Assembly (NCBI RefSeq): GCF_033406955.1
Contig: NZ_CP137734.1
Coordinates: 3,658,001-3,722,000 of the forward strand
DNA from: Streptomyces violaceoruber
GTDB taxonomy: Bacteria; Actinomycetota; Actinomycetes; Streptomycetales; Streptomycetaceae
Direction of reading: 5' to 3'
Length of the DNA stretch: 64,000 nucleotides
Shown here piece after piece: positions 1 through 49,058 of this stretch. The first letter of the stretch is position 1, and every line of letters begins with the position of its first letter. Under the pieces are notes generated by a model. It worked only from the letters and a program-made list of their open reading frames with translations, made no database searches and was not told where the DNA came from. Position numbers and translations under genes: made by a program.

Positions 1-439
1 GGACGGCGCCCTGTGGTGCACGCTCAACCAGGGCAACGCCATCGGGCGGCTCACCCCCGAAGGCCACGGCACCGCGTATCCGCTGCCGACGCCGGGCGCC
101 GCGCCGGTGGGCATCGCCGCGGGACCCGACGGCGCCCTGTGGTTCACCGAGATCGGGGCCGGGCGGATCGGCCGGATCACCGTGACCGGCGACCTCACCG
201 AGTACCCGCTGTCCGACCCCGCGGCCCGGCCGCACGCGGTGACGGCGGGGCCCGACGGCGCACTGTGGTTCACCGAGTGGGGCAGTGGCCGGGTCGGCCG
301 GATCACCGTCGACGGCCGCGTCACCTCGTACCCGCTCTCCCGTACCGACTGCGAACCGCACGGCATCGCCGTACACGACGGCGCCCTGTGGTGCGCCCTG
401 GAAACCGGCTCCCTGGCCAGGATCCAGGTCCCGGCCTGA
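1..439 (+). CDS. Vgb/streptogramin-lyase-like beta-propeller protein, C-terminal part (5' end outside window)
   Basis: The reading frame is open from base 2, so the start lies to the left. The visible 145 residues consist of repeated blades with the pattern GPDGALWFTE..G.GRIGRIT..G..TEYPL, typical of virginiamycin B lyase (Vgb) and related SMP-30/NHL-like propellers. Vgb linearises type B streptogramins by elimination in the cytoplasm. Blade-start histidines (PHAVT, PHGIA) are present, but the fragment is too short to assign the catalytic residues safely. Many Streptomyces proteins of this fold have no proven lyase activity, so antibiotic inactivation is an inference. The gene ends 54 bases before the next gene on the same strand. 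Confidence 0.75.
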   Translation, partial: DGALWCTLNQGNAIGRLTPEGHGTAYPLPTPGAAPVGIAAGPDGALWFTEIGAGRIGRITVTGDLTEYPLSDPAARPHAVTAGPDGALWFTEWGSGRVGRITVDGRVTSYPLSRTDCEPHGIAVHDGALWCALETGSLARIQVPA

Positions 440-44376: not shown

Positions 44377-45659
44377 CGGCGTACGACGAGAACGGTGAGA
44401 ACGGCCAGAACGACGAGACCGGCGAGAGCGACGACGGGGGCACCGGCACCGGCACCGGCACCGGCACCGGCACCGGCACCGGGGCGCGCATACCACTGCC
44501 CCGCGCCTCCGTCGAGGACGGCGGGCGGGCGCTGCCCGAGGCGGCGCCGGTCGCGCTGGAGCACCAAGTGCTGACGTCGCTGCTCGGCGCGTGGGCGCTG
44601 GCCGCCTGCTCGGCACCGGAGGCGGCGGCCGTCGAGGAGCACCTCGGGGAGTGCGACAGCTGTGCCGACGAGGCGCTGCGCCTGCGCGAGGCCGTCACGC
44701 TGCTCCAGCGGCCGGAGAGCCTCGACCTGGACCCCGCTCTGCACACCCGGGTCCTGGAGGGGTGCCTGGAGCGGCGTCCGCCCCGTATCCCGGTGCCCGA
44801 GTGGGCCGCCTCCTACGACGCCGAGACCGCGCGCCTCGACGCGCTGCTCCAGGACTTCGGGGACGCCGAGTGGCACGCCCCGGTCCGGCTGCGCTGGTTC
44901 GAGGACGACGGCGCCGCGAGCCGCCGCACGACCGTCGCCGGGGTCATCGCGCACCTGCTGACGGTCGACGGCACGGTCGCCGTCGGCCTGGGCCTCGACG
45001 ACCCGCTGGGTGACATCACCGCGCCCAGCGGCGGGCCGGCCGCGCGCACGGAGGCGTACTGGCGGGCCTCGCACTACCCGCCCACCCGCGCGGTGCGGGC
45101 GCCGTGGCGCGAGCAGAGCCACAGCATCGTCCGGACGGTGGCGTTCACCGGCGACGCGGGCGGCATGCCGGTCTCGTACGGAGACTTCGAGCTGCCGTTG
45201 CGGGACGCGATGCTGGACCGGGCGTTCGAGTGCTGGGTGCACGCGGAGGACATCGCCGAGGCGGTGGACTACCCCTACGCGCCGCCGTCCGCGCGCCATC
45301 TCAACGGCATGATCGACCTCGCCGCCCGGATGCTGCCGGGCGTCCTCGCGGCGCGCCGCCGGGCCGGTCTGGCCACGCCCGGCGGCGGTCCGCACCTGGT
45401 CGCCGCGGGTGGGCCGGGGCGCAGCCTGCGGCTGGAGATCGAGGGCTCGGGCGGCGGCGAGTGGCTCATCCCGCTGGACTCCCCCGGCGCGGTGGGCTCC
45501 GCCGACCACGAGGTGGCGCACGTCGCCCTGGACGGCGTGGAGTTCTGCCGGCTGGCGGCGGGCCACGTGCCTCCGGCCGAGGCGGCGGCGGGTCAGGCCG
45601 GGGACCGGGAGGCGATCAGGGACGTCCTGTTCGCGGCGGCCGGTCTGAGCCGGATGTAG
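44373..45659 (+). CDS. Zinc-binding anti-sigma factor fused to a maleylpyruvate-isomerase-like (DinB-fold) domain
   Basis: 428 aa. After a Gly/Thr-repeat leader, residues about 60-105 carry the zinc anti-sigma motif H-x3-C-x2-C (HLGECDSC). A long C-terminal part (about 130-428) resembles the MDMPI/DinB-type four-helix domain (VAGVIAHLLTVDGTVAVGLG, RDAMLDRAFECWVHAEDIAE). No membrane segment, so the anti-sigma is cytosolic. It overlaps the sigma gene by 4 nt (ATGA). The C-terminal domain could sense a thiol or metal, but this is inference. Its 3' end overlaps the convergent regulator gene by 44 bases. Confidence 0.88.
   Translation: MTAYDENGENGQNDETGESDDGGTGTGTGTGTGTGTGARIPLPRASVEDGGRALPEAAPVALEHQVLTSLLGAWALAACSAPEAAAVEEHLGECDSCADEALRLREAVTLLQRPESLDLDPALHTRVLEGCLERRPPRIPVPEWAASYDAETARLDALLQDFGDAEWHAPVRLRWFEDDGAASRRTTVAGVIAHLLTVDGTVAVGLGLDDPLGDITAPSGGPAARTEAYWRASHYPPTRAVRAPWREQSHSIVRTVAFTGDAGGMPVSYGDFELPLRDAMLDRAFECWVHAEDIAEAVDYPYAPPSARHLNGMIDLAARMLPGVLAARRRAGLATPGGGPHLVAAGGPGRSLRLEIEGSGGGEWLIPLDSPGAVGSADHEVAHVALDGVEFCRLAAGHVPPAEAAAGQAGDREAIRDVLFAAAGLSRM
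44439..44480 (+). repeat. In-frame hexanucleotide repeat (ggcacc)x7 in the anti-sigma gene
   Basis: Seven perfect copies encode a Gly-Thr run near the anti-sigma N-terminus. The unit is a multiple of three, so slippage would lengthen or shorten the protein without a frameshift. Confidence 0.95.
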
Positions 45660-46389
45660 CGTCGCCCTCAGGGGGTGCGGCGGGCGCCGTGTGGAGGACC
45701 TCGCGGGCCTGGTCCGCGGCCCGGACGATGCTCTCGGAGATGAAGTCGAGGAAGCGGGCGATGTTCTCCAGGCGCTCGGCCGCCGGGGTGCCGGAGCCCA
45801 GGACGCCGACGCCCTGGCGTGCGGTTTCGGCCACCAGAAGGGTCCCGCGGGCGCTGGCGACCATGGACTGGTACCAGACGTCGTCGTCGATGACGTAGCG
45901 CTCGCGGCGCGACGCGTCGCGTTCCCGGCGGACCAGGCCCTGCTCGTCCAGGAAGGCGACCGCCTTGGAGACGGACGCCGGGCTGACCTGGAGGTGCCGG
46001 ACGAGTTCGGACGCGGTGAGGCTGCCGCTGTCGCTGACGCAGAGGCACGCCATCACCCGGGCCATCATCTTCGGCGTGCCCTGCTGTATGAAGACGGTGG
46101 TCAGCGTCTCCTCGTACTCGCGCACGGCCTCGGCGTCCCGCCCGTGGGCGGGCGGGAGCGCCTGCGGCCCCCGGGGAGCCGCCTGCCTGCGCCGGTGGGC
46201 GCGGCGCTCGGTGGCCCGGTGGGCGAGGTCGGCGCGGTACGCGGTGGGACCGCCGTTGCGCATCACCTCGCGCGTGATCGTCGAGGTGGGGCGGTCGAGG
46301 CGCCTCGCGATCTCCGCGTAGGCGAGGCCGTCGGCCAGCCCCAGCGCGATCTGCTGACGTTCCTGCTGAGTGAGCCTGCCGCCCGGCAT
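45616..46389 (-). CDS. Dual-HTH regulator: IS30-type HTH fused to a GbsR/MarR-like winged helix
   Basis: 257 aa. Residues about 5-47 (LTQQERQQIALGLADGLAYA, EIARRLDRPTSTITREVMRN) look like the HTH_38 motif of IS30 transposases and some regulators. Residues about 90-190 look like a GbsR/MarR winged helix (MMARVMACLCVSDSGSLTAS, ELVRHLQVSPASVSKAVAFL, DEQGLVRRERDASRRERYVI), followed by a helical end. Two potential DNA-binding modules in one chain is unusual. It is divergent from the DUF4097-ABC operon across repeated GTTGCAAC-like sites, one covering its own -35. Its 3' end overlaps the anti-sigma gene by 44 nt. Confidence 0.85.
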   Translation of the reverse strand: MPGGRLTQQERQQIALGLADGLAYAEIARRLDRPTSTITREVMRNGGPTAYRADLAHRATERRAHRRRQAAPRGPQALPPAHGRDAEAVREYEETLTTVFIQQGTPKMMARVMACLCVSDSGSLTASELVRHLQVSPASVSKAVAFLDEQGLVRRERDASRRERYVIDDDVWYQSMVASARGTLLVAETARQGVGVLGSGTPAAERLENIARFLDFISESIVRAADQAREVLHTAPAAPPEGDATSGSDRPPRTGRP

Positions 46390-46421
46390 CGTGATCTCCT
46401 TCGCGTCCCCTGATGCGCCCG

Positions 46422-46574
46422 ACTATAGCGTTCACTCTCACTCCATTGCAACGACAACTGATCTGGCGTTGCATTGCTTTACAGACCGTTGCAACGAATT
46501 AGCGGCTCTGACCTGCATGGCTCCCATCCCATCGCAACAAGTCTATTGAGGCATCCTCGAACGCAACGTAGCGT
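46422..46574. promoter_or_regulatory. Divergent promoters with repeated GTTGCAAC-type sites
   Basis: Minus-strand promoter: TATAGT (46422-46427), 18-bp spacer, TTGCAA (46446-46451). Plus-strand promoter: TTGAGG (46546-46551), 17-bp spacer, TAGCGT (46569-46574). Sites: CATTGCAACG (46444), CGTTGCATTG (46467), the perfect palindrome CGTTGCAACG (46487), and weaker CATCGCAACA (46530) and CGCAACG near 46562. The region is conspicuously A+T-rich for this genome. One site covers the regulator's own -35. Confidence 0.7.
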
Positions 46575-46620
46575 TTCTCATGTCAGAAAGAACGACGGGC
46601 AACGCAAACGGGAGACCACC

Positions 46621-47286
46621 ATGCAGACCTTCGACACCCCCGCCCCGATCTCCGCTCTCCTCGACGTCCCGGCGGGCCGCATCCGGTTCATCGCCGCCGA
46701 CCGGACCGACACCACGGTCGAGGTCCTGCCCGCGGACGCCTCGAAGGGACGTGACGTGAAGGTGGCCGAGCAGACCAGGGTCGAGTTCGGCGACGGCGTC
46801 CTGCGGATCGAAACCGGGGTGAAGCACCCGTTCATGGGCGCCTCCGGCGCCGTCGAGGTGACGGTCCGGCTGCCCGCCGGCTCCCGCGTCGAGGCCAAGG
46901 CGGCAGCCGCCGAGTTCCGGGGCGTCGGACGGCTCGGCGATGTCGGCTTCGAGGGCGCGCACGGCCCGGTCAAGCTCGACGAGGCCGCGAGCGTCCGCCT
47001 CGCCACCGCCGCCGGTGACATCTCGGTCGGCCGTCTGGACGGCCCCGCCGACATCCGCACCGAGAAGGGCGACATCCGGATCGCCGAGGCGGTGCGCGGC
47101 GAGGTCGTGCTGCGCACCGGGTCGGGCGACCTCTCGGTGGGCGCCGCCGCCGGGGTCTCCGCCTCACTGGACGCCGGCACCTCCTACGGCCGCGTCCACA
47201 ACGCGCTCAGGAACACCGACGGCACCCCCGGCCTGACCATCCACGCGACCACCGCCCACGGCGACATCACCGCCCGCAGCCTCTGA
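46621..47286 (+). CDS. DUF4097-family beta-strand-repeat protein
   Basis: 221 aa with the repeating short beta-strand pattern of DUF4097/DUF4098 proteins (VEVTVRLPAGSRVEAKAAAA, VRLATAAGDISVGRLDGPAD, IRTEKGDIRIAEA, VVLRTGSGDLSVGAAAG), predicted to form a beta-helix-like stack. No signal peptide; function unknown. ATG 46621 follows GGGAGA. It is the first gene of an apparent operon: the ABC ATPase begins 12 bases after its stop. In many actinobacteria DUF4097 genes sit with ABC exporters and small regulators, as here. Confidence 0.88.
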   Translation: MQTFDTPAPISALLDVPAGRIRFIAADRTDTTVEVLPADASKGRDVKVAEQTRVEFGDGVLRIETGVKHPFMGASGAVEVTVRLPAGSRVEAKAAAAEFRGVGRLGDVGFEGAHGPVKLDEAASVRLATAAGDISVGRLDGPADIRTEKGDIRIAEAVRGEVVLRTGSGDLSVGAAAGVSASLDAGTSYGRVHNALRNTDGTPGLTIHATTAHGDITARSL

Positions 47287-47298
47287 GGAGCAGCAGTC

Positions 47299-48273
47299 AT
47301 GACCAGCTCGGCCATCACCGCGAACGGACTGCGCAAGTCCTACGGCGACAAGACCGTCCTCGACGGCATCGACCTGGCCGTCCCCGAAGGAACGGTCTTC
47401 TCCCTGCTCGGCCCGAACGGCGCCGGGAAGACCACCGCCGTCAAGATCCTCTCCACCCTCGTCACCCCCGACGCCGGCGACATCCGCGTCGGCGGCCACG
47501 ATCTCGCCTCCGCTCCGCAGGCCGTGCGCGGCGCGATCGGGGTCACCGGCCAGTTCTCCGCCGTGGACGGCCTGATCACCGGCGAGGAGAACATGCTCCT
47601 CATGGCGGACCTGCACCACCTCCCCCGCCCCGAGGGCCGGCGGGTCGCCGCCGAACTGCTGGAGCGCTTCGACCTCACCGAGGCCGCCGGCAAGCCCGCC
47701 TCCACCTACTCCGGCGGCATGAAACGGCGCCTGGACATCGCCATGACCCTGGTCGGCGACCCCCGCATCATCTTCCTCGACGAGCCCACCACCGGCCTCG
47801 ACCCCCGCTCCCGCCACACCATGTGGCAGATCATCCGCGCCCTCGTCACCGACGGCGTCACCGTCTTCCTCACCACCCAGTACCTGGAGGAGGCCGACGA
47901 ACTCGCCGACCGCATCGCCGTGCTCCACGACGGCAGGATCGCCGCCGAAGGCACCGCCGAGGAACTGAAGCGGCTCGTCCCCGGCGGACACGTCCGGCTC
48001 CGCTTCACCGACCCCACCGCCTACCGCGACGCCACCGCCGCGCTGCCCCACAGCGCCGGCGACGACAACACCCTCACCCTCCAGATCCCCAGCGACGGCA
48101 GCCAGCGCGACCTGCGCACCATCCTCGACCGCCTCGACGACGCCGGCATCGAGGCCGACGAACTCACCGTCCACACCCCCGACCTCGACGACGTCTTCTT
48201 CGCCCTCACCGCAACCACCGCCCCCGCCGCCGTCCCCGCCCAGACCGACGCGACCAAGGAGACCGTCCGATGA
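47299..48273 (+). CDS. ABC exporter ATP-binding protein (DrrA-like)
   Basis: 324 aa. Walker A GPNGAGKTT, Q-loop (VTGQFSAVD), signature SGGMKRR, Walker B IIFLDEPTTGLD, and H-loop replaced by Gln in VFLTTQYLEEADELAD, a feature of the DrrA daunorubicin-exporter family. The C-terminal 90 residues are the DrrA-type regulatory extension. It works with the permease whose start overlaps its stop (ATGA). Such two-gene exporters confer resistance to drugs or peptides; the substrate here is unknown. Confidence 0.93.
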   Translation: MTSSAITANGLRKSYGDKTVLDGIDLAVPEGTVFSLLGPNGAGKTTAVKILSTLVTPDAGDIRVGGHDLASAPQAVRGAIGVTGQFSAVDGLITGEENMLLMADLHHLPRPEGRRVAAELLERFDLTEAAGKPASTYSGGMKRRLDIAMTLVGDPRIIFLDEPTTGLDPRSRHTMWQIIRALVTDGVTVFLTTQYLEEADELADRIAVLHDGRIAAEGTAEELKRLVPGGHVRLRFTDPTAYRDATAALPHSAGDDNTLTLQIPSDGSQRDLRTILDRLDDAGIEADELTVHTPDLDDVFFALTATTAPAAVPAQTDATKETVR

Positions 48274-49058
48274 GCAACCTCTCCCTCGCCGTGCGCGACT
48301 CGTCCACCATGCTGCGCCGCAACCTCCTGCACGCCCGCCGCTACCCCTCCCTCACCCTGAACCTCCTGCTCACGCCGGTCATGCTGCTGCTCCTCTTCGT
48401 CTACGTCTTCGGCGACGCGATGAGCGCCGGCATCGGCGGCGGCGGCGACCGCTCCGACTACGTCTCCTACCTCGTGCCGGGCCTGCTCCTGATGACCATC
48501 GGATCCACCACGATCGGCACCGCGGTCTCCGTCTCCAACGACATGACCGAGGGCATCATCGCCCGCTTCCGCACCATGGCCATCCACCGCGGCTCCGTGC
48601 TCGTCGGGCACGTCATCGGCAGCGTGGTGCAGTCGATCATGAGCGTGGTCCTCGTCGGCGCCGTCGGCGTGGCCATCGGCTTCCGCTCCACCGACGCCAC
48701 CGCCCTGGAGTGGCTGGCGGCCTTCGGGCTGCTCCTGCTCTTCACGCTGGCGCTGACCTGGATCGCGGTCGGCATGGGACTGATCAGCCCGAACGCCGAG
48801 GCCGCCAGCAACAACGCGCTGCCGCTGATCTTCCTCCCGCTGATCTCCAGCGCCTTCGTCCCCATCGACTCGATGCCGGGCTGGTTCCAGCCGATCGCCG
48901 AGTACCAGCCGTTCACGCCCGCCATCGAGACCCTGCGCGGCCTCCTCCTCGGCACCGGGATCGGCCACAACGGCTGGCTCGCCCTCGGCTGGTGCCTCGC
49001 CCTCACCACGCTCGGCTACGTCTGGGCGACCTCGAAGTTCAACAGCGACCCGAATTGA
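48270..49058 (+). CDS. ABC-2 type permease (DrrB-like)
   Basis: 262 aa with six hydrophobic segments and the ABC2_membrane pattern (NLLHARRYPSLTLNLLLTPV, YVSYLVPGLLLMTIGSTTIG, EGIIARFRTMAIHRGSVLVG, ISPNAEAASNNALPLIFLPL). It forms the channel for the preceding ATPase, to which it is translationally coupled by a 4-nt overlap. It ends the operon DUF4097-ATPase-permease, 41 bases from the convergent purU gene. Confidence 0.92.
   Translation: MSNLSLAVRDSSTMLRRNLLHARRYPSLTLNLLLTPVMLLLLFVYVFGDAMSAGIGGGGDRSDYVSYLVPGLLLMTIGSTTIGTAVSVSNDMTEGIIARFRTMAIHRGSVLVGHVIGSVVQSIMSVVLVGAVGVAIGFRSTDATALEWLAAFGLLLLFTLALTWIAVGMGLISPNAEAASNNALPLIFLPLISSAFVPIDSMPGWFQPIAEYQPFTPAIETLRGLLLGTGIGHNGWLALGWCLALTTLGYVWATSKFNSDPN

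Follow-up and report, generated by a model that had tools for sequence, protein, structure and literature searches.

The window examined here is a 64,000-nucleotide stretch of the genome of Streptomyces violaceoruber (NZ_CP137734.1, positions 3,658,001 to 3,722,000), a single contig of 8.6 Mb; all coordinates below are those of the window. It contains a minus-strand gene for a regulator with two predicted DNA-binding domains, facing plus-strand genes for a DUF4097 (Toastrack) protein, a DrrA-type ATP-binding cassette (ABC) ATPase and an ABC-2 type permease (Table 1). Between the divergent genes lies an array of regularly spaced inverted repeats whose arms resemble the ends of transposons of the IS30 insertion sequence (IS) family. 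An earlier note, made from the letters of the window, had described the locus as a self-regulated export or envelope-stress module.

The regulator combines two helix-turn-helix (HTH) domains, and here the earlier description as an IS30-like HTH joined to a GbsR/MarR-like winged helix proved correct. Residues 5–45 match Pfam HTH_38 (E-value 3.7e-15, 55.8 bits, cut-off 27), and a MarR-type winged helix spans approximately residues 117–160 (E-value 4.5e-10; MarR_2, 40 bits against a cut-off of 27; MarR, 36.1 against 24.6). In the AlphaFold2 (AF2) model, both domains are confidently predicted internally whereas their mutual placement is not (predicted local distance difference test score, pLDDT, 79.2; predicted template modelling score 0.49). 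The nearest structures found by Foldseek (E ≤ 0.001) were 4nb5, 1ku9, and 5jbr, which we take to be GbsR-like. Residues 2–74 are 39–50% identical over 61–78 residues to five IS30-family transposases (E 5e-17 to 1e-9 in this five-sequence set), and the homology runs beyond the HTH into the following helix. HTH_38 was found in 5/5 IS30-family control transposases and the integrase core rve in three of them, one below the curated cut-off; the other two gave no rve match at the E-value applied. No Pfam match to this aspartate-aspartate-glutamate (DDE) core was detected in the regulator. Judged by sequence, the first HTH of the regulator is a homologue of the region with which the transposase binds IS30 ends.

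On the regulator strand, three 28-bp elements (E4, E3, and E2) recur with an exact 43-bp period, and a fourth, E1, is a single arm beyond them. In each 28-bp element, a GTTGC arm is followed by a GCAAC-like arm in inverted orientation, and 12 bp separate the two 8-bp half sites. Three sites that the earlier note had placed at 46444, 46467, and 46487 are real and lie one base further on, at 46445, 46468, and 46488; the 43-bp period, the pairing of the arms, element E2, and the link to IS30 ends had been missed. The A+T-rich island that it described corresponds to 46425–46591, at 50% G+C compared with 73% for the window. Promoters had been claimed for both directions. For the regulator, the scan found TTGCAA-18-TATAGT as the sole promoter-like site (0.1 expected in shuffles), and E4 overlaps it, in agreement with the proposed site over the regulator's −35. 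For the DUF4097 operon, the scan of the window reported no promoter, and the one listed in Table 1 was read by eye only. The site positions, as far as they go, are consistent with the divergent, self-regulated arrangement that had been proposed.

Table 1. Features of the regulator–DUF4097 locus (window coordinates)
Feature	Position	Strand	Basis
Regulator, 257 aa	45616–46389	minus	Open reading frame (ORF) list and Pfam domain search
Element E4, GTTGCAAT-N12-AACGCTAT, over regulator promoter	46425–46452	minus	Pattern search; kept in 65/70 relatives
Predicted regulator promoter TTGCAA-18-TATAGT	46422–46451	minus	Promoter scan, 9/12 matches
Element E3, GTTGCAAC-N12-AATGCAAC	46468–46495	minus	Pattern search; kept in 69/70 relatives
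Element E2, GTTGCGAT-N12-ATGCAGGT, weaker	46511–46538	minus	Arm search
Operon promoter TTGAGG-17-TAGCGT	46546–46574	plus	Read by eye
Single arm E1, GTTGCGTTC, between operon-promoter hexamers	46559–46567	minus	29 bp past E2
GTTTCnGA...GAAA-type element near presumed operon start	46568–46590		53/70 relatives
DUF4097 (Toastrack) protein, 221 aa	46621–47286	plus	Pfam DUF4097, E 3.2e-10, 40.3 bits, cut-off 22.9
DrrA-type ABC ATPase, 324 aa	47299–48273	plus	TIGR01188, 317.6 bits, cut-off 312.45
ABC-2 type permease, 262 aa	48270–49058	plus	Pfam ABC2_membrane, 95.1 bits, cut-off 26.9

In the 8.6-Mb genome, the pattern GTTGCAAY-N12-RAYGCWAY occurs exactly only at E4 and E3. When two mismatches were allowed, six further places were found, one of them E3 on the other strand, and the reversed control also gave six. 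The looser pattern TTGCAAYN{10,13}RAHGC matched four places, two of them in this array, and its reversed control one. Because exact 28-bp matches occur only here and the looser pattern matches four places, a large regulon is unlikely for these paired patterns; single arms were not searched genome-wide.

Conservation was assessed in the best 80 of 586 confirmed loci, a choice by which close relatives are over-represented. By record title, 68 of these are from Streptomyces and 12 from other actinobacteria (Micromonospora and Actinomadura, two each; Kitasatospora, Actinacidiphila, Peterkaempfera, Kribbella, Actinopolymorpha, Saccharothrix, Longispora, and Cellulomonas, one each). Among these best 80, the closest regulators come from Streptomyces, and some regulator match is present in 117/121 genomes of the family, in many as paralogs only. 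Six loci had less than 900 bp upstream, and in 70 of the remaining 74 DUF4097 faces the regulator. E3 was found in 69 and E4 in 65 of these 70 relatives, and both together in 64, with a spacing of 43–45 bp; the background for the two patterns was 6 and 3 occurrences, respectively, in 794 kb of flanks searched on both strands. The left arm of E2 was present in 68 of the 69 E3-bearing relatives, 43 bp from E3 in 66, and both its arms in 60; E1 was present in 62 of the 69 and lay 29 bp from E2 in 60. A TTGNNN-16..18-TAGCNT sequence, corresponding to the operon promoter read by eye, is present in the intergenic regions of 68/70 relatives. In 54 loci aligned on E3, pairwise identity was 0.90 in the arms, 0.45 in the spacer, and 0.40 in the flanks; the arm value is partly forced by the search pattern, and the four free arm columns gave 0.83. 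(L002, L073, and L111–L122, counted under other ids, were left out of this alignment and of the TTGCAA counts below.) The sites are thus conserved with the gene pair, the opposite of what the earlier note had listed as counting against its proposal. Five orthologs that are 75–81% identical and have the array (L158, L162, L189, L198, and L207) lie on contigs labelled Actinomadura, Micromonospora, Kribbella, Cellulomonas, and Saccharothrix; they represent either recent horizontal transfer or mislabelled genomes.

The operator arms match the ends of IS30-family transposons in sequence. YGCAAC occurs within the first 30 bp in 10/10 ends of five IS30-family elements, taken from the annotated IS30A of E. 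coli K-12 and from copy-to-copy boundaries in four other genomes, with only the IS30 tips being exact. With a matrix built from 35 orthologous intergenic regions, all ten ends ranked within the top 1.6% when compared with 20,000 random 40-mers (the operator and IS loci are themselves part of this pool), and no more than 2.4% of the shuffled versions of any end scored as high as that end. Six IS copies from other E. coli elements (IS1 twice, IS2, IS3, IS5, and IS911; the IS1 ends are two identical copies) provided 12 further ends, none of which had a standout score: the fraction of E. coli 40-mers scoring as well was 0.136–0.96 for these ends compared with 0.003 and 0.001 for the IS30 ends. In the literature, cited here and below by PMC number on the basis of partial texts, ISLxc3 has GTCGTTGCAACA at both ends (PMC2516522), and an N-terminal 17-kDa fragment from IS30 protects bp 9–35 of the IS30 ends (PMC7780238, citing Stalder 1990). 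The protected stretch covers the YGCAAC core.

Shorter relatives of the regulator (~40% identity) do not have HTH_38 and face another DrrA-like ABC gene, in L053–L062 across a different operator, TTTCAnA...GTGAA. The motif was absent from the shared intergenic region in 10/10 of these HTH_38-less relatives, and nine carry TTCAnA...GTGAA instead; the tenth was missed, with its start called too far upstream. TTGCAA was present within 150 bp upstream of 40/42 orthologs and 21/23 paralogs with HTH_38 but of 0/11 HTH_38-less relatives, the presence of HTH_38 being judged by BLAST; 1.8% of random 150-bp stretches contain it. The ten shared intergenic regions are the firmer HTH_38-less count, since gene calling had placed the starts of L052 and L054 too far upstream. 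In a tree of the winged helix, a single branch (support 100/99) separated 66/66 rows with HTH_38 from the others; L052 and L059 count as HTH_38-less there, and the program warned of long branches for L077, L078, L125, and L041_54. A single capture of the transposase domain, accompanied by an operator change, would fit this pattern. One HTH_38-less regulator of the same family, L053 (G000:C1:4536000-4543000), is a second family member in the genome studied here. Another genome (G087, locus L041) has a regulator ortholog and a paralog less than 3 kb apart, and the same 13 kb also contain two DUF4097 genes.

We propose that a MarR/GbsR-type repressor probably captured the DNA-binding domain of an IS30 transposase and uses operators that resemble IS30 ends. 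In such a scheme, a presumably dimeric repressor would once have gained from an IS30-family transposase the HTH region of ~70 residues that binds the transposon ends, and HTH_38, not the winged helix, would read the GTTGC/GCAAC arms. The two HTH_38 domains of a dimer would each occupy one arm of a 28-bp element, and dimers could stack along one face of the DNA across both divergent promoters because the 43-bp period is about four helical turns. The regulator would then repress itself via E4, which lies over its own −35/−10 region, and the DUF4097-DrrAB operon via E1 and E2 at the operon promoter. The MarR part would sense a ligand, plausibly an antibiotic or other hydrophobic compound, upon which the array would be released; DUF4097 would work as a submembrane stress scaffold and the DrrAB-type pump, where present, would export the compound.

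The arms could instead be read by the winged helix, with GTTGCAAC forming part of an ordinary MarR inverted repeat, HTH_38 adding affinity only, and the likeness to IS30 ends arising by chance. Inverted repeats between divergent genes are, as a matter of general knowledge, common MarR targets (PMC12838073 makes a similar statement), and the recognition helix of the winged helix is conserved, in relatives with and without HTH_38 alike. This explanation is nevertheless unlikely given that winged-helix relatives without HTH_38 are also without the motif (0/10 and 0/11), that 9/10 of them carry TTCAnA...GTGAA, and that the core recurs in 10/10 ends of elements whose transposases share HTH_38. A division of labor, in which HTH_38 reads the arms and the winged helix reads either the GTTTCnGA...GAAA element or the 12-bp spacers, is possible, if doubtful. 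The GTTTCnGA...GAAA element, which adjoins E1 and is conserved in 53/70 relatives, is the commonest best-match place for a matrix of nine operators from HTH_38-less relatives, but the scores are weak (mean 5.7, compared with 2.9, standard deviation 3.1, for shuffles and 6.8–32.9 for the nine operators themselves) and the spacers are poorly conserved (0.45). It seems very improbable that the regulator does not bind the sites at all and that E4 and E1 have been kept as promoter elements only or are bound by another factor. These two sites do overlap promoter hexamers or their spacer, yet E3 and E2 are equally conserved outside the predicted hexamers, the exact pattern recurs nowhere else in the genome, and TTGCAA stays with paralogous regulators that sit beside hydrolases or P450s.

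Several observations weigh against the array of sites or against capture of the transposase domain with its operators as we propose it. The arms are short and part of their conservation is fixed by the search patterns; the relatives share descent, and the counts are not independent events. Matches to GTTGCAAC with at most one mismatch show no enrichment within the window (7 found, 11.3 expected), so the claim for the sites rests on their spacing and conservation. IS30 ends have one arm each and not a pair 12 bp apart. TTGCAA is missing in orthologs L026 and L127 and in paralogs L049 and L051. The winged helix keeps its recognition helix and may share in binding, and HTH_38-less relatives also differ in winged-helix sequence, which makes the motif change a correlation with one tree event. 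The exporter is not a constant partner: within up to 6 kb examined, a DrrA-type gene was not found in 25 of the 60 relatives whose sequence extends more than 1.2 kb past DUF4097.

In 35 of these 60 relatives, a DrrA-type gene (≥ 55% identity, on the DUF4097 strand) was present, in L194 at 3.9 kb from the regulator. For 10 of the 25 exporter-less loci, the first neighbor was scanned, and nine gave Pfam matches: two beta-lactamase-fold proteins and one each of alpha/beta hydrolase, thioesterase, S9 peptidase, short-chain dehydrogenase, AMP-ligase, endonuclease/phosphatase, and acetoacetate decarboxylase; these first neighbors need not all be operon members. Ten scanned paralog neighbors comprised six PF00144 serine hydrolases, two P450s, and two proteins with no match, and the paralogs L049, L128, and L129 face DrrAB-like genes without DUF4097. 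Since the exporter and other neighbors vary, what stays constant is the regulator together with its array, joined in this clade by DUF4097; the exporter is optional. The reading of the locus as an export module is thereby narrowed and finds partial support. In the exporter, which had been described as DrrAB-type, the ATPase exceeds the cut-off of the DrrA model, whereas the permease scores 66.7 bits against a cut-off of 223.05 for the DrrB-type model TIGR01247 and is recognized by the general ABC2_membrane model. With regard to the beta-helix fold of Toastrack proteins, the AF2 model of the DUF4097 protein is weak (pLDDT 66.5) and has strands nearly throughout; a Foldseek search with this weak model gave no match at E ≤ 0.001, and a comparison with PDB sequences none at E ≤ 0.1. 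Toastrack/DUF4097 proteins have been assigned to submembrane stress systems, among them ABC operons that carry GntR or ribbon-helix-helix (RHH) factors (PMC11237479), and in the lunaemycin antibiotic cluster a DrrA gene lies beside a DUF4097 gene (PMC9866976). From the neighbor genes and this literature on DUF4097 and DrrA, a role in detoxification or envelope stress may be inferred. On its other side, the regulator gene (end 45616) is convergent with a plus-strand upstream ORF (end 45659), with a 44-bp overlap.

The MarR-type local regulator and the DUF4097-ABC operon are of known kinds. The MarR/GbsR-type local repressor CtcS, an example of those that face an efflux or detoxification gene, likewise has a winged helix, a divergent layout, and sites over promoters, but these sites are CTTGTC repeats, whereas the present regulator adds a transposase-type HTH and three spaced elements (PMC6905112). 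Neither IS30 nor DUF4097 is mentioned for CtcS (165 aa) in the portion of that text available, nor are transposase and DUF4097 in the corresponding portion for SCO7424. Described Toastrack/DUF4097-ABC operons likewise combine DUF4097, an ABC ATPase, a permease, and a local regulator, the latter being GntR-HTH or RHH proteins instead of an IS30-HTH/MarR fusion (PMC11237479). The lunaemycin cluster shares the DrrA-family ATPase gene beside a DUF4097 gene, and its partial text contains no matching regulator (PMC9866976); the present locus presumably lies outside any recognized cluster. Compared with IS30-family transposases (InsI1 of E. coli IS30; ISLxc3), the regulator has a homologous N-terminal HTH region and the same site core but is without the integrase core and is joined to a MarR-type domain, and its sites have two arms separated by 12 bp where a transposon end has one. 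In the literature searched, which covers subscription papers thinly and so does not show absence from print, we found no IS30/MarR fusion, no description of its motif, and no transposase-derived bacterial regulators. As far as these searches show, the fusion with IS30-end-like operators is new.

At least two relatives (G009 and G044) have a regulator ortholog and several IS30-like elements in the same genome. That the regulator still reads real IS30-family ends, with cross-talk between both systems, is quite unlikely. If it did, its occupation of IS30 ends would amount to a domesticated brake on transposition, IS30 copies could titrate the regulator and thereby switch on the stress/export genes, and the operator array could serve as an IS30 insertion target.

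Transposase-derived regulators are familiar in eukaryotes. In bacteria, TldR proteins are TnpB-derived, RNA-guided repressors that likewise come from a transposon-encoded protein, whereas the regulator described here would act through a direct DNA-binding HTH. If our proposal is correct, it would add a widespread bacterial example, with both the end-binding domain of a transposase and the end sequence kept and rewired as repressor and operators. One operator rule would then predict targets for many uncharacterised regulators, because the family sits by different genes (DUF4097 with or without an exporter, serine hydrolases, and P450s), and the two classes of relatives, with HTH_38 and without it, would offer a test made by nature for which of the two HTHs determines specificity. 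It seems that the cell has put a part of the transposase protein, along with its recognition sequence, to new use as a switch.

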